This document shows, piece after piece, positions 9,928 to 17,439 of a stretch of 64,000 nucleotides of DNA (position 1 is the stretch's first letter; every line of letters starts with the position of its first letter). A program made the position numbers and the translations under genes. The DNA is from Sphaerisporangium sp. TRM90804 (GTDB lineage Bacteria > Actinomycetota > Actinomycetes > Streptosporangiales > Streptosporangiaceae). The stretch is from contig NZ_JARWAC010000002.1 in assembly GCF_029846175.1 (NCBI RefSeq), positions 248,001 to 312,000 of the forward strand. Reading direction: 5' to 3'. The notes below the pieces were generated by a model. It was not told the DNA's origin and ran no database searches. It saw only the letters and a program-made list of their open reading frames with translations.

Positions 9928-11547
9928 TCAGCCCTCCTCGGCGAAGGCGATCACGGTGGGGACGGCGGCGTCGAGGGCGTCGGTGACGGCCTTGCCCAGC
10001 TCGTCGGGGGTGGTCACCGCGCGGCCGCGGGCGCCGTACGCCTCGGCGAGCGCCACGAAGTCGGGCATGTGCAGGTCGACGCCGACCGGCCGCATGCCGT
10101 GCGCGAGCATCGCCGCGCGGATCTCGCCGTAACCTCCGTTGAGGGGCACCACGATCGGCAGCGCGAGGCGCAGCTCGACGGCGGTGGCCAGCTCCTGGAC
10201 GCTGAACTGCAGGGCGCCGTCGCCGGCCAGCACCGCCACCGGCCGGTGCGGCAGGCCGGCCTTGACGCCGATCGCCGCGGGCAGCGCGAAGCCCAGGGTG
10301 CCGTACCCGGTGGGGAACAGGAACCGGCCGGGCGCGTCGACCGGCAGGCCGCCCACCGCGCCGCGGTAGGCCAGCATCGAGTTGTCGCCCACGACGACGG
10401 CGTCACGGGGCAGCGACCTGCGCAGCGCGTCCAGGTGGCCGGCCCACCTGCGGGTGAGCTCCACCAGCTCGTCGTGCCGGGTGTCGCGCATCTCGCGTTC
10501 CTCGGCCCCCGGCGGGAACGCGCCCGGCGGCTCGGCGGGCGGCGCGGGCGGCAGGCGGTCGAGCAGGGCGCGCAGGGCCAGGGCGGCGTCGGCGACGACG
10601 GGGACGCCCGCGGGGTGGCCGCCGCCCATCTGGGCGGGGTCGATGTCGACGCGGACCAGGGTGCCGCCCAGCGTGAAGTCCTCCACCCACAGGTCGGAGG
10701 GGGCCAGCTCGGTGCCGACGGCCAGGACGGCGTCGCACCCGGCCAGCCAGCGGCGGACCGAGGCCAGGTGCAGCGTGGCCCCGAGCGACAGCGGGTGGCT
10801 CTCGGGCACGGTGCCCTTGCCGTTCACCGTGGTGACGACCGGCGCCGCCAGGCGCTCGGCGAGCCGCAGGGCCAGCGGGCCGGCGGGCGGGCCGCCGCCG
10901 CGCGGCCAGGTGCCGCCGCCGAGCACGACGGCCGGCCGCCGCGCCGCCGAGAGGACGCGGGCGGCCTGCTCGATCGCGGCAGGCTCGGGACGGCGGAGCG
11001 CGGGCGCGGAGGGCGGCACGGCCCGCGAGAGGTCGGCGGGCGCCTGCAGCAGGTCGACCGGGACCTCCAGGTAGACGGGGCGGGGCCGCTCCTCGGCGAA
11101 CATGCGGAACGCGCGGGCGACGGTGTCGGCGATGTCGCCGGTGGAGGCCGCCCGGTGCCCCCAGGCGCACAGCGCTTCGAGGGCGCCGAGCTGGTCTTTG
11201 CTCTCGTGCAGGTAGCCGCGCCCGTCGGAGGGGTGGCCGGTCGGCAGCCCGGTGGTGACCAGCAGGACCGCCGAGGAGTCGGAGTAGGCCTGGGCCATCG
11301 CGGTGGCCGCGTTGACCGCGCCCGGCCCGGTGGTCGTGACGAGCACGCCGGGGCGGCCGGTGGCGCGCGCGTAGCCGTCGGCGGCGTAGCCCGCCCCCTG
11401 CTCGTGCCGGGAGGTGACGCACCGCACGCCGGCGAGCTGCAGCTCCTGGTAGAGGGCGAGATTGTGCGTGCCGGGGATGCCGAAGACGGTGTCCACCCCG
11501 TGGAGCCGGAGCGCCGCGGTGAGCAGTCGCGCTCCGGTAACTTGCAC
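9928..11547 (-). CDS. Thiamine-diphosphate-dependent enzyme, acetolactate-synthase-like
   Basis: 539 residues with the three domains of the pyruvate-oxidase/acetolactate-synthase superfamily. The catalytic glutamate lies in TSRHEQGAGYAADGYAR near residue 47. A central domain follows, and the ThDP/Mg motif begins GDGALQFS and closes with PLNGGYGEI, in which the usual second Asn is Gly. The GRGYLHESKDQL segment resembles decarboxylases of the 5-guanidino-2-oxopentanoate (AruI) type more than anabolic IlvB, and no small regulatory subunit is adjacent, so an alpha-keto acid decarboxylase is the better guess. The GTG at 11547 is chosen because homology starts there (VTGARLL); the upstream in-frame extension is Arg/Pro-rich noise. 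Confidence 0.85.
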   Translation of the reverse strand: MQVTGARLLTAALRLHGVDTVFGIPGTHNLALYQELQLAGVRCVTSRHEQGAGYAADGYARATGRPGVLVTTTGPGAVNAATAMAQAYSDSSAVLLVTTGLPTGHPSDGRGYLHESKDQLGALEALCAWGHRAASTGDIADTVARAFRMFAEERPRPVYLEVPVDLLQAPADLSRAVPPSAPALRRPEPAAIEQAARVLSAARRPAVVLGGGTWPRGGGPPAGPLALRLAERLAAPVVTTVNGKGTVPESHPLSLGATLHLASVRRWLAGCDAVLAVGTELAPSDLWVEDFTLGGTLVRVDIDPAQMGGGHPAGVPVVADAALALRALLDRLPPAPPAEPPGAFPPGAEEREMRDTRHDELVELTRRWAGHLDALRRSLPRDAVVVGDNSMLAYRGAVGGLPVDAPGRFLFPTGYGTLGFALPAAIGVKAGLPHRPVAVLAGDGALQFSVQELATAVELRLALPIVVPLNGGYGEIRAAMLAHGMRPVGVDLHMPDFVALAEAYGARGRAVTTPDELGKAVTDALDAAVPTVIAFAEEG

Positions 11548-11661
11548 GCCCCAATCGTACGGGCTGGGCCCACCCGCTTCGTGATCGCCGTCCGGCCCGG
11601 GGCCCCGGCGTGTCGGCCGGAGCGACGGCGCGAGCGGCCGAGGCGGCGACCGCCTGAGTGG

Positions 11662-11680
11662 AAAAGGGAAATTCCTCTTT
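11662..11680. promoter_or_regulatory. AT-rich imperfect palindrome upstream of the SCO2524-type operon
   Basis: AAAAGGGAAATTCCTCTTT reads as AAA..GGAA.TTCC..TTT, matching its own reverse complement at 15 of 19 positions. It is the only AT-rich island in the divergent 213-bp region and lies 80 bp before the operon start. It is a candidate operator or promoter element; the binding protein is unknown. Confidence 0.35.
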
Positions 11681-11760
11681 AGACGAGGGGGAACCCGCCC
11701 GTCTCCCTTACCGTTGGTCGTGGTGGGACCGCGTCGCCGCGAGGGCATTGGGAGGCCGGC

Positions 11761-13593
11761 ATGAAACTGCAGCCGCGACAGCAGCTCCTGGAGGTCTGGG
11801 AAGCCGCGGCACGGGCCTCCTTCCGCGACGGCACCTGGGTGTGGGGCGGGCGCGACGGCTCCAACTCGATCTCCGACGCCGAGCAGTTACTCTGCTTCGT
11901 CCATCCGGCCGCCGAGCTGTCCGGCTTCAAGCTGGACGTCCCGGACGCCACCGCCGACGACGTCCTGGAGGCGTTGAGCGAGCTGGGCGACAGCGTCGAG
12001 ATCCCCAAGCTCCTGCTGCGCGTCATCGGCGAGTACCTGCGCACCTACGCGGACCCCGACGGCCGGCCGGTGTTCTCCGGCGGCGGCTACTTCAAGTCCA
12101 CCGAGGAGGGCGTCGAGGCCACGCCCGAGCAGCGCCAGCTCGACATGGTCGACTCCTTCTCCATCTCGGTGACGCTCATGCTGGGCGTGCTGGGCTTCCT
12201 GAAGGTGTTCCGGCAGAGCGTGCGGCGTGAGGACATCCGCCGCGAGATCCGCGAGCTGGAACAGCTCTCCAGCAAGCGCCTGTCGGCCGCCATGGTGGGG
12301 CTGCTGCGCAGCTTCACCGTCAACGTCTTCGAGCCGGGCTCGCTGGCCGGGCAGACCCTGCTGCGCACGGTGAACCAGACCGGCGCCCCCGAGCGGCGCA
12401 TCCAGGAGGATCTGCAGAAGCGCCTGCTGGAGGTACGCGCCGGCGTGCGCGAGCTGACGATCGGTTCCGGCGTCGTCGACCTCGACAACCCCAACCTGCT
12501 GTTCGAGTGCGGCTGGTCCTGGGGCCTGGTCAAGGACGCCCCGCAGGTCGAGACCATCCTGGACGTCGGCACGCAGCCCAAGGGCGTCGCCGTGCAGACC
12601 CCGTTCATGTACTTCACCGTGAACGCGCTGGTCGGCATCGTCGACCTGTTCTCCGAGCGCACCCGCGTGCTCGGCCTGCTGGACGACGCGCAGTTCCAGC
12701 TCGCGCAGGCGCTGCAACGCCGGTGGGACCTCACCCAGGGCTACTGGCGTGTCATCGCCACCTACGGCCGGGGCCTGTGGCCGTTGCAGGACATCCCGTG
12801 GCGCACGTCCGACGGCCGCGAGTCCGACTACTACAGCCTGGCGGTCACGGCGATGGTCGTGCAGAGCCTGCTGAGCAACCGGGCGGCCGACGTCGACGTC
12901 GGCCGGGTGACCGGCGTGCTGGAGGAACTGGCCATCCGGGCGCGCATCACGCGCAGGGCCATCGCCGGCGACCCGCCGGTGGCACTGCACTCCCCCGGCA
13001 TCACGGTGACGCTGGCGGGCACCGAGGACATCGGCCCGCAGCTCACCTGGCAGGTCGCCGACTTCTCCATCATCCTGCTGAAGCGCATCAACTGGCTGTC
13101 GTCCATCACCCAGAGCACGCGCACGCGCGAGCGCCTGCTCGACCTCGCCGACCAGGTGTGGCAGCACGTCCTGTCGCGCCGCTGCGGGCACGGCCTGGCG
13201 CGCGGGCTGTGGGACCACCCGGGCAACGTCTACTCCGACATCGACGACCACCACGAGCTGCCCTCCTGGTACTTCAGCGAGCGCGTGGTGGAGTTTCTGG
13301 TATCGGCCGCCAAGTCCAGCGCCGAGTCGCCGCTGCGCAGCCCGCAGCTCATGGACATCGCGCGCGACATGCTCAGCGAGGCCGAGCACCTCCTCGACCA
13401 GGAGCTGGTGACGCGCCCGCTGCTGGCCGGCCCGGCGATCCGCTCCAGCCTGCGGGGCGTGCAGGCGGGCCTCTCCCGCGCCCGCCTGATCCTCGGCGAG
13501 CGGCCCGCGACCGCCGTCGCGCTCATCAGCGACGCCCTGGTGGAGCTCGAACGCCTGGCCACCGCCAGGGAGAACGCCGCGGAGGTGACCTGA
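11761..13593 (+). CDS. SCO2524-family protein, function unknown
   Basis: 610-residue protein that I recognise as the SCO2524 family of actinomycetes. No function is established and no catalytic motif is apparent. It opens with MKLQPRQQLLEVWEAAARAS and a conserved-looking GGRDGSNSISDAEQLLC stretch. The remainder appears largely alpha-helical, with WRTSDGRESDYYSL and HSPGITVTL islands that suggest a helical-barrel or repeat scaffold. The ATG has GGGAGG eight bases upstream. It is followed without gap by the variant P-loop gene, in the order 2524-2523-2522-2521 known from Streptomyces, so the four proteins probably work together. Confidence 0.85.
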   Translation: MKLQPRQQLLEVWEAAARASFRDGTWVWGGRDGSNSISDAEQLLCFVHPAAELSGFKLDVPDATADDVLEALSELGDSVEIPKLLLRVIGEYLRTYADPDGRPVFSGGGYFKSTEEGVEATPEQRQLDMVDSFSISVTLMLGVLGFLKVFRQSVRREDIRREIRELEQLSSKRLSAAMVGLLRSFTVNVFEPGSLAGQTLLRTVNQTGAPERRIQEDLQKRLLEVRAGVRELTIGSGVVDLDNPNLLFECGWSWGLVKDAPQVETILDVGTQPKGVAVQTPFMYFTVNALVGIVDLFSERTRVLGLLDDAQFQLAQALQRRWDLTQGYWRVIATYGRGLWPLQDIPWRTSDGRESDYYSLAVTAMVVQSLLSNRAADVDVGRVTGVLEELAIRARITRRAIAGDPPVALHSPGITVTLAGTEDIGPQLTWQVADFSIILLKRINWLSSITQSTRTRERLLDLADQVWQHVLSRRCGHGLARGLWDHPGNVYSDIDDHHELPSWYFSERVVEFLVSAAKSSAESPLRSPQLMDIARDMLSEAEHLLDQELVTRPLLAGPAIRSSLRGVQAGLSRARLILGERPATAVALISDALVELERLATARENAAEVT

Positions 13594-14508
13594 GTGCTGA
13601 TCTTCGCCATCTCCGACAAGGGCGGGACGGGGCGCTCGGTCACCAGCGGCAACATCGTGTACCGCCGCTCCTTGCAGGGCAACGACGTCTGCTACGTCGA
13701 CTTCGACTTCGGCTCGCCCACCGTCGGCGCGATCTTCTCGATCAGCGAGGCGGAGCGCGGCACCCGGCGCGGCGGCACGCACCGCTACCTGCAGGGCGAG
13801 GTCGCCGAGCCGCACCGCATCGACATCTGGGCCGAGTCCGACCGCGAGGGGCTGCGCGTCAAGCCGCCGGGCGCGGGCCAGCTGGTGCTGTACCCCGGCG
13901 ACGAGGGCGGCGGGGAGTTCCCGACGCTCACCGAGGAGCTGCTGCGGCAGTGCGTCCGGCTCTTCAGCAGGCTCGACGAGGAGTTCGACCTGGTCATGGT
14001 CGACCTCAGCGCGGGCCGCTCGTTCGCCGCGCACCTGGCCCTGGCGGCGACCGCGCGGCTGCCCGGCGTGCACAGCCGATGGCTGGTGTTCCACCGCTGG
14101 ACGCGCCAGCACATCATCGCCGCCGCCGGGCTGGTCAACGGCGAGCGCGGGCTGCTCGACGTCGGCGCCGAGCACGGCCACGACCCCGCCGAGCTGGCCG
14201 ACCGCGTCCGGTTCGTGCGCACCGCCGTCCTGGAGCAGGACTCCGCCGAGCTGGCGGGCCTTCGCCCCACGCAGCTCGCCTGGCTCAACGACTGCGACCG
14301 CGAGCTGCGCGAGCTGTCGGCCCGCCACAAGGTGGGGCGCACCCGCATGCTGGGCAAGGTGCCGCTCGACCCCGTCCTGCAGTGGCGCGAACAACTCATC
14401 TCCGACGAGGACGTGCTCGCCAGCCAGATCGCCAACGCCGGCACGGTCGCCGCGTTCGACGACCTGGCCAAGAAGGTCGTCGACGACAACGCGTGGGAGG
14501 GCCTGTGA
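13594..14508 (+). CDS. SCO2523-family variant P-loop protein (ParA/MinD-like fold)
   Basis: 304 residues resembling a ParA/MinD/SIMIBI NTPase, with the deviant Walker A stretch SDKGGTGRS at residues 8-15: the invariant catalytic Lys of KGGxGKS is Arg. The first Lys, typical of the deviant P-loop class, is kept (K9). A YVDFDFGSPT segment stands where MinD has its Walker A' aspartate region, and FDLVMVDLSAG is the Walker B-like strand. It may bind nucleotide without normal hydrolysis. The GTG start directly follows the previous TGA, and its stop overlaps the next GTG. NCBI curators call this family a variant P-loop protein, consistent with what is seen. Confidence 0.87.
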   Translation: MLIFAISDKGGTGRSVTSGNIVYRRSLQGNDVCYVDFDFGSPTVGAIFSISEAERGTRRGGTHRYLQGEVAEPHRIDIWAESDREGLRVKPPGAGQLVLYPGDEGGGEFPTLTEELLRQCVRLFSRLDEEFDLVMVDLSAGRSFAAHLALAATARLPGVHSRWLVFHRWTRQHIIAAAGLVNGERGLLDVGAEHGHDPAELADRVRFVRTAVLEQDSAELAGLRPTQLAWLNDCDRELRELSARHKVGRTRMLGKVPLDPVLQWREQLISDEDVLASQIANAGTVAAFDDLAKKVVDDNAWEGL

Positions 14509-15461
14509 CGCCGGTCAACGCCACGTTCGGCGAGGTCGCGGCCGAGCGGCGCATCGCCTCCTCGCCGCTGTCCCACGTCTCGATCGAGCTCGGCCACCTG
14601 TACATGGAGGACTTCGAGGCGGGCCCCGACCGGCTCAGGCAGCAGTTCCGCCGGGCCGAGCCGTGGGCGTCCACCGCCCGGCGGAGCTGGCAGGAGCGTG
14701 TCCCCGGCGGCCGGGCGCGGGTCAGCACCTGCTTCCTCATCGACGACTACTTCAGCCGCTTCAGCACGCCCGCCGAGCTGATCCCGGTCATCGTCGAGAC
14801 GGCCGCCGACAGCGGCCTCACCATCGACTACCTGGCCCGCGAGTCCGCCTGCGCCCGCGCCGGAGGCGTCGAGCCGGCGAAGCTGGTGGAGGACCGCCTG
14901 GTCGCCGACCCCCCTGTGGGCACCAACGGGTCGCGCCCGCCGGCGCGCGAGACCGGCTGGCTGTGCAACGGCACCCGCTCGCCGGTGGCCGGGGTGGTGC
15001 AGGCGATGGGGGTGGCGCAGAAGTGGCGGCCCCCGGCCCAGAACGCCAAACGCGGGCACTCCGTCTTCGTCGACGTGGAGCTGTGGAACGACGACGACGG
15101 CGAGCGCACGTGGTCGTGCCCGTTCCTGGCGGCGGTGTGGCAGCTCCTGCGGCTGGGCATGCTCCGTGACGACGGCAGGCCGCCGGTCGTCCCCCAGCCC
15201 CGCGGCACCACCTTCCCCGACGACTGGGCCGACCTGCCGCCGATCATCCGGCTCGTCCCGTCGGCCGCGCCGTTCGCCGCCTACACCACGCTCTCGGTGC
15301 TGTCGTCGCGCTTCATGCCCGTCGAGCTGGCCGTGCGCACCATCCTCAGCCAGGTCGCCGTGGACGCCGAGGTCCTCGGGCAGGTCGTCTCCCGGAGCGA
15401 GGACGAAGGCGTCCCGCTGGAGGACGAGCTGGTCGACCGGCTCTCCTACGTGTTCACCTAG
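14505..15461 (+). CDS. SCO2522-family protein, function unknown
   Basis: 318 residues beginning GTG-ACG-CCG, with the start overlapping the preceding stop (GTGA). It matches the SCO2522 family as I recall it. Visible features include SHVSIELGHLYMEDF near the N-terminus, CFLIDDYFSRF, then SVFVDVELWNDDDGERTWSCPFLAAVWQLLRLGML, and a C-terminal helical segment. The acidic CFLIDDYF and ELWNDDD patches could form a metal or nucleotide site, but I know of no experiment. Translational coupling to the P-loop protein suggests a stoichiometric complex. Confidence 0.83.
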   Translation: MTPVNATFGEVAAERRIASSPLSHVSIELGHLYMEDFEAGPDRLRQQFRRAEPWASTARRSWQERVPGGRARVSTCFLIDDYFSRFSTPAELIPVIVETAADSGLTIDYLARESACARAGGVEPAKLVEDRLVADPPVGTNGSRPPARETGWLCNGTRSPVAGVVQAMGVAQKWRPPAQNAKRGHSVFVDVELWNDDDGERTWSCPFLAAVWQLLRLGMLRDDGRPPVVPQPRGTTFPDDWADLPPIIRLVPSAAPFAAYTTLSVLSSRFMPVELAVRTILSQVAVDAEVLGQVVSRSEDEGVPLEDELVDRLSYVFT

Positions 15462-15547
15462 TTCGCAGTTCACACCGCACGGCTCCAGCGACCGCCGCAC
15501 ACCGTCTCCACGGGCCGCCCCCGAGGGCGCCGGGCAGGAGGGGCACA

Positions 15548-16474
15548 TTGCTGATGGTGGGGGAAGTCCAGACCGGGCTCCTGCAGAACTCCGGGGAGAT
15601 CCCCGACTCGCTGAGCACCGAGCTCCTCGCGCTGGTGCGCGGGGAGCGGGTGCGGGTGTTCCGCCGGCCGATCGCCTACGCCGTGTCCCCCGACCGGCTG
15701 ACCGGCGTCGACTGCCACCTCGCCTCGGCGTCCGGGGCGCGGGTCCGGGGGGTGGGCACGGTGCTGTCGCGGGCGTCGGTCACCGGGGGCCGGCTCGTCC
15801 AGGGCTCCTCCCAGGTGCGCGTCACGCGAGGCACGTCGAACCGGCGGCTCGCCTGGTCGCACTACATGGCACGCCCCGGCGTCGTGGAGGTGGTCGGCAA
15901 GGCGCGCGCCGCCGACCTCGCCGGAGGTTTCACCCTGGACGCCCCGCCGGCCGAGTCCCTCGACCTGGGGGCGGTGAGCGCGCGGTTCGTGGACGTGGTG
16001 CAGTCCTCCGCCCGGCTCGACCGCCGGGCGCCGTTCCGCATGGCGCGCACCCGGTTCCGCTGGACGGCCGAGCCCGGGGAGCCGGACGTCCGCCTGCAGC
16101 TGCGGGGCGACAACGTGCGCACGCTGCGCCTGACGCTGCCCGACCCGTTCGCGCCGGGCGTCGCCGAGCTGTGCGAGGACCTCGCGCTGCACGACTGGCT
16201 GCTCACCGCGCTGATCGAGATCGTCAGGCGCGCACGGCCGGGGAGCGTGGCACGGCCGGAGGCCGCGGCCCGGCTCGCCCCGGCCATCGACCACATCCTG
16301 CACCTGTGGATGCCCGCGGCCCGGGTGCAGGACTCCCTGCTGCACGTCTGGGAGAGCCTGGAGCACCGGCCGGGGTTCACCCGGCAGTGGCAGTCACTGG
16401 TCAACAGGGTTCGCGACCACGTCACGGTGGCTCTGCTCACCGTGGCCGGCGGAGACGGGCGGAGCGGAGATTGA
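15548..16474 (+). CDS. SCO2521-family protein, function unknown
   Basis: 308 residues, SCO2521 family by content and position. The TTG at 15548 is preferred because AGGAGG ends six bases before it; the ATG at 15554 would be twelve bases away. It reads GEVQTGLLQNSGEIP, then a beta-rich middle (RVRGVGTVLSRASVTGGRLVQGSSQVRV) and a helical C-terminus. No catalytic motif is recognised. It is separated from the SCO2522 gene by 86 bp, the only real gap in the operon, so a second promoter or weaker coupling is possible here. Confidence 0.8.
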   Translation: MLMVGEVQTGLLQNSGEIPDSLSTELLALVRGERVRVFRRPIAYAVSPDRLTGVDCHLASASGARVRGVGTVLSRASVTGGRLVQGSSQVRVTRGTSNRRLAWSHYMARPGVVEVVGKARAADLAGGFTLDAPPAESLDLGAVSARFVDVVQSSARLDRRAPFRMARTRFRWTAEPGEPDVRLQLRGDNVRTLRLTLPDPFAPGVAELCEDLALHDWLLTALIEIVRRARPGSVARPEAAARLAPAIDHILHLWMPAARVQDSLLHVWESLEHRPGFTRQWQSLVNRVRDHVTVALLTVAGGDGRSGD

Positions 16475-17439
16475 GCGACACCGAAGGCAAGCGGTCCCCC
16501 CTGCACGAGCCGGTTCCCAAGACGCTGCGCAAGCTGCTGGTCACGCTGGCGATCGGCTCGCTCACGTACGCGCTGTCGGACAACATGGCGGAGGACCAGG
16601 CGTGGACCATCATGCTCACCGCGTTCATCAGCGGCGTGGTGTTCGTGGTGCAGTACCTGGTGGACGTGGACAACCAGCTCCAGGAGTCGCGTGTGGAGGC
16701 GCGGCGGCAGCACGAGAACCTGCACCGCCTGGTCGGTGACGGGCTGTCGCGCATCAACGAGGCGACGGAGCTGTTCCGGCTGGTGGAGATCTCGGCGCTG
16801 CAGATGGACGTGGTGACGCAGTTCCTGCGCAACGCCACCAAGGTGGGCGCCGACATGCCCGAGCTGGTGCAGCACTTCGCCCAGTCGGAGATCGCGCGCA
16901 TGTCGTCGTTCCTGAAGGAGCTGGGCGAGGGGAGCGTCATCTACGAGGGCGAGGACCGCGACTGGCTGCTCGGCCTGGCCGGCAACGCCAGGACGAGCAT
17001 CGACGCCCTCAGCCTCAACATCGTCGACCAGGGGCCGTCGGAGGCCGAGGGCGGCTTCTGGTTCACCGACCTCGGCGAGCGCTACCTGCGCATCCAGCAG
17101 GAGCTGGTCGAGCGGCACTGCCGGGTGCGGCGGATCTTCTTCCTCGACAGCCCCGAGCGGCTGCAGTCGGAGATGTTCCGCCGAATCTGGCGGCGGCAGG
17201 CCGAGATCGGCATCGAGGTGCGGGTCCTCACCCCGGCCGACGTGAAGACCTCGCTCGGCCTCAGCGACATCATCGTGTTCGACGACGTCATCACCTACGA
17301 GGTGACGCCGTCGCCGTCGATGGGCGAGCTGGCGGCGCACACCGTGGTCAGCACCCGCCTGGTGCTCGAACCGCTTCGCGTGGCGGAACGTTCCCAGCGC
17401 TTCAAGGAGCTGTGGGCCCTGGCGGCCACCCCGGAGTAA
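16471..17439 (+). CDS. Two-TM, coiled-coil protein with a C-terminal globular domain; last gene of the SCO252x-like operon
   Basis: 322 residues starting with TTG that overlaps the previous stop (TTGA). Two membrane segments (about 21-35 and 46-64) are followed by a predicted coiled coil (about 66-105: NQLQESRVEARRQHENLHRL). A soluble domain follows whose GNARTSIDALSLNIVD and RRIFFLDSPERLQSEMFRRIWRRQAEIGIEVRVLTP strands resemble phospholipase-D-fold effector domains, but no HKD motif is present. It would anchor the soluble SCO252x proteins at the membrane. The family is not one I can name; membership in the operon is inferred from coupling. Confidence 0.75.
   Translation: MSDTEGKRSPLHEPVPKTLRKLLVTLAIGSLTYALSDNMAEDQAWTIMLTAFISGVVFVVQYLVDVDNQLQESRVEARRQHENLHRLVGDGLSRINEATELFRLVEISALQMDVVTQFLRNATKVGADMPELVQHFAQSEIARMSSFLKELGEGSVIYEGEDRDWLLGLAGNARTSIDALSLNIVDQGPSEAEGGFWFTDLGERYLRIQQELVERHCRVRRIFFLDSPERLQSEMFRRIWRRQAEIGIEVRVLTPADVKTSLGLSDIIVFDDVITYEVTPSPSMGELAAHTVVSTRLVLEPLRVAERSQRFKELWALAATPE

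Follow-up and report, generated by a model that had tools for sequence, protein, structure and literature searches.

The closest described system to the one considered here is the SCO2521–SCO2525 locus of Streptomyces. Its families have already been named by NCBI in NCBIfam (NF040564 to NF040568), including the label "variant P-loop" for the SCO2523 family. Work by Gehring and colleagues in 2004 reportedly found that SCO2525 influences colony growth and development. In the relevant passages of later papers, SCO2525 is described as required for normal growth (PMC11472566) or as morphogenetic (PMC6344877) and is mentioned along with S-adenosylmethionine (SAM) and differentiation (PMC3017869), in each case citing Gehring et al. 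2004. The first of these papers also assigns the operon sco2521–sco2526 to a group that seems to be regulated by HupS alone (PMC11472566). Passages of the open-licence PubMed Central (PMC) literature yielded no study of these proteins under the names SCO2520 to SCO2526, "variant P-loop" or the family names. Here we describe a related five-gene operon in a 64,000-nucleotide stretch of Sphaerisporangium sp. TRM90804 (contig NZ_JARWAC010000002.1, positions 248,001 to 312,000), which we call the window.

Four of the five window genes are equivalogs of families in the Streptomyces locus, each scoring above its own curated NCBIfam cut-off (Table 1), and the assignment of these genes to the SCO2524-2523-2522-2521 set by a first-pass annotation is thus confirmed. 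The window differs from the Streptomyces locus in that its genome has no SCO2525-type gene by profile search, and in that its fifth gene has no NCBIfam model (best match 13.1 bits, E 0.087). The five-gene observation is real, while function and mechanism are what we infer from it. As far as our searches show, the new elements comprise the fifth member of the set, the likeness of its domain to DUF6879, the precise description of the P-loop change along with its FxsT counterpart, and the finding that this lineage lacks the methyltransferase.

The comparison covered 33 loci that carry a SCO2523 family gene, namely the window, 28 other genomes above the cut-off in a sample of the class, and four records from Planotetraspora (Streptosporangiaceae). 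The class sample comprises 296 genomes of 115 genera, and SCO2523 lies above its cut-off in 29 of the 296. Two sub-threshold loci (L064 and L065) were inspected and excluded from all counts. Gene content was established by profile searches of six-frame translations, followed by alignment and a recount. Start codons across the compared loci were chosen by script, and those of SCO2522 are unreliable. The SCO2522 profile also matched out-of-frame stretches within SCO2523 (GC-rich open frames); those matches were discarded, and long SCO2522 rows were trimmed to about 320–370 residues for alignment. Genome-wide profile searches scored 4–7 candidates per genome.

Among the sampled genomes, the core genes are either all present, in one copy each, or all absent, and the fifth gene occurs solely with the core. 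SCO2522, SCO2523 and SCO2524 are confined to the same 29 of 296 class genomes by profile searches. The fifth-gene profile has a strong match in 25 of those 29 genomes and none in the other 267; weak partial matches in G007 (1e-8, positions 193–258) and G151 (1e-6, positions 8–120) were not counted. Because the profiles were built from the 29 genomes, matches there arise by construction, and the informative part is the lack of a strong match in the other 267. At E ≤ 0.01, with 7 and 4 candidates scored per genome, respectively, no paralogue or distant relative of SCO2522 or SCO2524 was found beyond the 29 positive genomes. SCO2521 is present in 32 of the 33 loci, the exception being a contig end, and all set members found share one strand in each of the 33. 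In L059, the SCO2524 frame contains an in-frame TAG (G292:C361:9-1850), which may reflect either sequencing error or decay. Since the positive genomes fall in only 8 of the 115 genera, the number of independent events is much smaller than the genome count. A sparser sample of the phylum gave 7 positive genomes among 396, all of the same class. The set was most likely inherited vertically.

A neighbourhood survey bore out the proposed link between the fifth gene and the set: a homologue lies within the operon in 29 of the 33 loci (one of these, L059, is cut by a contig end). The gene is not in loci L055, L057, L058 and L062, and a genome profile search found no match elsewhere in the corresponding genomes (G172, G132, G056 and G031). 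An assembly gap was considered as the cause and rejected for the G056 locus, which contains no N and no gene remnant (three relatives as queries, best E 0.13). At the expected fifth-gene site of L058 there is a stretch of lower GC content (about 52–59%) without called genes (10672–14228). The position of the fifth gene varies in genus g49, where it lies between SCO2523 and SCO2522 rather than at the operon end in L059, L060, L061 and L063; for L059 this position was read across two contigs. All eight loci of family f18, presumably Streptomyces, have the gene downstream of SCO2521 and on the same strand, and by position it would correspond to SCO2520 of S. coelicolor. In pairwise distances, the fifth protein correlates with the four core proteins at r 0.82–0.87, values that shared species history inflates and that carry no species-tree control.

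The second characteristic of the set lies in the P-loop of SCO2523. Table 1 of PMC9178275 gives the ParA-family motif as KGGxxK[ST], with one signature lysine and one catalytic lysine. The gene 2 protein has SDKGGTGRS at residues 7–15, in which K9 is retained and R14 stands at the catalytic position. Judged as a deviant Walker A motif of the ParA/MinD type, the family thus has the signature lysine (K9, 33 of 33) and lacks the catalytic one (R14, 33 of 33). The arginine noticed in the first-pass annotation is therefore a property of the whole family. The protein is not "lysine-less", as it was also called, since only the second lysine is replaced. In the alignment, SDKGGTGRSVT, D36, D38 and D137 are invariant in all 33 sequences, and the invariance of R14 excludes a sequencing error. 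By analogy with MinD, D36/D38 and D137 would correspond to the switch and Walker B positions.

In the PDB, the first ~70 residues of SCO2523 are closest to Mrp/ApbC, Cfd1 and MinD chains. Its C-terminal half has no match outside the SCO2523 family in NCBIfam, Pfam or PDB profile searches. SCO2523 is also the most conserved of the five families, with 66% mean column identity versus 38–58%. Thus, the protein shares the signature lysine, glycines and acidic residues with the ParA/MinD/Mrp family, but has arginine for the catalytic lysine, and no ParB- or MinC-like partner is recognised in the set. A Lys-to-Arg change in a P-loop can retain nucleotide binding and slow hydrolysis, as has been reported for RecA.

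The same variant, KGGxGR[ST], occurs near the start of large proteins in the same class. Three of these were scanned, and all are TPR proteins of the FxSxx-COOH system (FxsT type), with TPR in 3/3, TIR in 2/3 and NB-ARC in 1/3. Against the KGGVGR-motif variant AAA domain (NF047398), SCO2523 scores 35.6–37.9 bits with the motif present. Given that this is far under the cut-off of 90, we treat SCO2523 as a cousin, not a member. While the Lys-to-Arg change is common to both, SCO2523 is a stand-alone protein of 304 amino acids (aa), unfused to TPR, TIR or NB-ARC. A KGGxGR-type P-loop gene lies ~11–15 kb from the SCO2523 gene in L045/L080 (G162:C68), G268:C132 and G276:C111, all of genus g49. This neighbour is FxsT in G162; those in G268 and G276 are known from the P-loop match alone.

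The fifth protein combines a hydrophobic N-terminal part, a linker and a soluble C-terminal domain. With a 19-residue hydropathy window and a cut-off of 1.2, two hydrophobic segments are scored in the window protein, at residues 22–40 (1.23) and 46–64 (2.08), and two pass in 21 of 29 members of the family. The two transmembrane segments previously assigned to the protein were thus both recovered, but the first is barely above the cut-off. Both ends are predicted to be cytoplasmic from the basic residues that precede the first segment and from the short and largely uncharged spacers, a prediction that depends on the weaker first segment.

The sole near-significant Pfam match of the fifth protein is to DUF6879 (PF21806), at residues 206–318 (20.8 bits versus a cut-off of 23.9). 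This family is matched at E ≤ 0.01 by 21 of 27 fifth-family members, and hhalign of the fifth family against 29 DUF6879 sequences gives a probability of 97.5 (E 7e-12), while ten control pairs reach at most 5.7. By profile comparison, the soluble C-terminal domain is therefore DUF6879-like. Unlike DUF6879, the fifth family adds the hydrophobic N-terminal part and the linker. We found no papers using the name DUF6879 in the open-licence PMC literature. The first-pass annotation had instead likened this domain to a phospholipase-D fold, for which we found no support: HxK(x)4D is absent in all 29 members including the window protein (one of the 29 being a partial sequence), there is no Pfam phospholipase-D match, and hhalign gave no signal, albeit in a weak test against the six phospholipase-D segments that passed the motif filter. 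A SLATT/DUF4231-type pore was also rejected, the match being sub-threshold and confined to one of 27 members, the window protein (E 0.051). Another DUF6879 gene (L087, G000:C1:188606-189100) is located on the window's contig, ~75 kb from the fifth gene.

The remaining core proteins resemble little else. SCO2524 has no Pfam domain above cut-off, and its best PDB profile match (YacP, E 0.018) is unconvincing. No PDB match was found for SCO2522, which has no recognised fold, or for SCO2521. Weak Pfam matches are to DUF6829 in 4 of 32 SCO2524 proteins (E 0.0031), to DprA_WH in 1 of 32 SCO2522 proteins (E 0.072) and to DUF6963 in 1 of 32 SCO2521 proteins (E 0.029). In both SCO2522 and SCO2524, numerous alignment columns hold an invariant polar or aromatic residue.

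Of the 33 loci, 18 carry a SCO2525-type gene ahead of SCO2524, and all 18 also have the fifth gene. The one member scanned is above the cut-offs of NF040568 (342 bits versus 240) and of Pfam NNMT_PNMT_TEMT (30.7 versus 25). The PDB relatives of this type are nicotinamide and phenylethanolamine N-methyltransferases (best E 1.6e-8 by profile). Profile searches found no such gene in the window genome (62 of 62 candidates scored) or in 12 of 13 further genomes lacking an operon-adjacent copy. Upstream of SCO2524 in G233 (L047), a short SCO2525-type fragment (5199054–5199194 on C1) contains an in-frame stop, which suggests recent loss.

Table 1. Genes of the operon, with positions in the window
Feature	Position	Strand	Model and score
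Gene 1, SCO2524 family protein, 610 aa	11761-13593	+	NF040567, 896 bits (cut-off 300)
Gene 2, SCO2523 family variant P-loop protein, 304 aa	13594-14508	+	NF040564, 494 bits (cut-off 200)
Gene 3, SCO2522 family protein, 318 aa	14505-15461	+	NF040566, 461 bits (cut-off 200)
Gene 4, SCO2521 family protein, 308 aa from TTG	15548-16474	+	NF040565, 396 bits (cut-off 150)
Gene 5, putative membrane protein, 322 aa: hydrophobic segments, linker, C-terminal DUF6879-like domain	16471-17439	+	

All five open reading frames are on one strand, and stops and starts touch or overlap at three of the four junctions (Table 1). Genes 1 and 2 meet without a gap as TGA|GTG (13593/13594), genes 2 and 3 overlap by GTGA (14505) and genes 4 and 5 overlap by TTGA (16471), as had been reported for the last pair. 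Gene 4 could alternatively start at an ATG at 15554. Since 86 bases (15462–15547) separate genes 3 and 4, the coupling of the operon is not continuous. The argument that near-continuous coupling implies a fixed-ratio complex is thus weak, especially as 428 bases lie between genes 4 and 5 in L044 (with a script-chosen start). Neither operon end yielded a promoter or terminator in simple consensus scans, and upstream alignments of nine loci (the window, four from Planotetraspora and four from genus g2) or of eight f18 loci contain no convincing conserved promoter motif.

The operon ends 124 bases from a convergent gene, whose homologue in L001 encodes a flavin adenine dinucleotide (FAD)-dependent oxidoreductase. 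The same nine loci, the window and its eight close relatives, share metabolic flanks: a FAD oxidoreductase in 9/9, a thiamine pyrophosphate (TPP) enzyme in 8/9 (not L002) and a hydroxyacid dehydrogenase in 8/9 (not the window). The 2-hydroxyacid dehydrogenase gene lies between the operon and the TPP-enzyme gene in seven close loci and is missing from the window at 11560–11760; L002 has the dehydrogenase and no TPP gene in reach.

The explanation that we put forward, and hold only tentatively as a whole, is a membrane-tethered complex with a slow or non-hydrolysing P-loop switch and a role in hyphal growth or development. The locus would be one lineage's form of the conserved actinomycete SCO2521–2524 set, extended by a fifth, membrane-anchored member. 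The products of the set would form a single cytoplasmic complex, which the fifth protein, with both ends cytoplasmic, may tether to the membrane through a two-helix hairpin while displaying its DUF6879-like domain. To judge from its motifs, SCO2523 is a protein of the ParA/MinD/Mrp type that is likely to bind nucleotide and to pair, acting as a switch or scaffold with slow or no hydrolysis, and it would set the timing of SCO2524, SCO2522 and SCO2521 action. Many other lineages add the NNMT-like methyltransferase SCO2525 to the operon; in the window lineage it was presumably lost or never present. Hyphal growth or development would be the most likely role. Of the options of polarity, sporulation and defence raised in the first-pass annotation, defence is disfavoured; development is favoured only indirectly.

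Several observations weigh against this explanation. The fifth gene is missing from four of the 33 loci and is therefore not essential to the core, and its protein tracks the core proteins less closely (0.82–0.87) than they track each other (0.92–0.96). Only one hydrophobic segment passes in 8 of 29 fifth-family members: L053 fails at the second, and the other seven (L045, L047, L049 and the four from Planotetraspora, L001–L004) at the first. Given that the first segment is also weak in the window protein, the hairpin and the topology are uncertain in this very lineage. The growth phenotype is that of SCO2525, a gene not detected in the window genome. In addition, the open-licence PMC literature yielded no interaction, localisation or nucleotide-binding result for any member of the set.

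Alternatively, the set may be an enzyme complex for the modification of a small molecule or protein. SCO2524 and SCO2522 would then be the enzymes, in many lineages SCO2525 would add a methyl group, and the role of the P-loop and membrane proteins would be only to hold the complex together. The likeness of SCO2525-type proteins to NNMT/PNMT N-methyltransferases fits this idea, as do the many invariant polar and aromatic residues of SCO2522 and SCO2524 and the occurrence of the KGGxGR domain in proteins of the FxSxx-COOH system. A GNAT acetyltransferase gene is also near in 20 of the 33 loci; the two members scanned match MshD and RimI models best, under their cut-offs. However, in 11 of these 20 loci the gene lies on the opposite strand, SCO2521, SCO2522 and SCO2524 belong to no recognised catalytic family, and SCO2525 was not found in the window genome or the close relatives tested. 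We consider an enzyme complex rather improbable. Less probable still is that SCO2523 retains a P-loop fold without nucleotide binding and that the whole is a static structural membrane scaffold. The arginine in all 33 sequences is consistent with such a scaffold, and other ParA-family proteins have altered lysines, such as SGGQGKT in McdA and RGGVGTT in BcsQ (in Table 1 of PMC9178275). Yet the P-loop is otherwise conserved without exception, as are the acidic residues, and one would not usually expect a dead site in the most conserved of the five families.

An anti-phage or other conflict system with a membrane effector seems the least likely of these explanations. The transmembrane and soluble-domain layout of gene 5 resembles that of known membrane effectors, and the sub-threshold DUF4231 match of the window protein and the TIR and NB-ARC fusions among the FxsT proteins point in the same direction. 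By contrast, PADLOC gave no defence model beyond one weak match to the P-loop protein (E 0.0025, residues 6–48). The P-loop and fifth proteins have no match in 72,556 plasmid records, nor does the P-loop protein, the only one searched there, in 50,697 phage records; on these same results we reject a mobile element. The single copy per genome also argues against defence, and the metabolic flanks common to the window and its eight close loci make the locus unlike a defence island.

Returning to the membrane-tethered complex, its most specific form would be a new spatial or timing switch of filamentous actinomycetes. In this form, which is possible but doubtful, a Lys-to-Arg protein of the ParA/MinD type, locked towards the nucleotide-bound state and held by a dedicated DUF6879-type anchor, would gate a three-protein machine, with the methyltransferase as an optional output in many lineages. 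Regardless of mechanism, three families without a recognised fold travel all-or-none with a P-loop protein that lacks the catalytic lysine in every member seen. With its fifth, membrane-type member, the set has a likely location and offers a bait for pull-downs, and SCO2525, reported to affect Streptomyces growth, is now tied to a defined gene set. Through its invariant arginine, SCO2523 offers a natural test of how far a ParA/MinD-type protein can function without its catalytic lysine.

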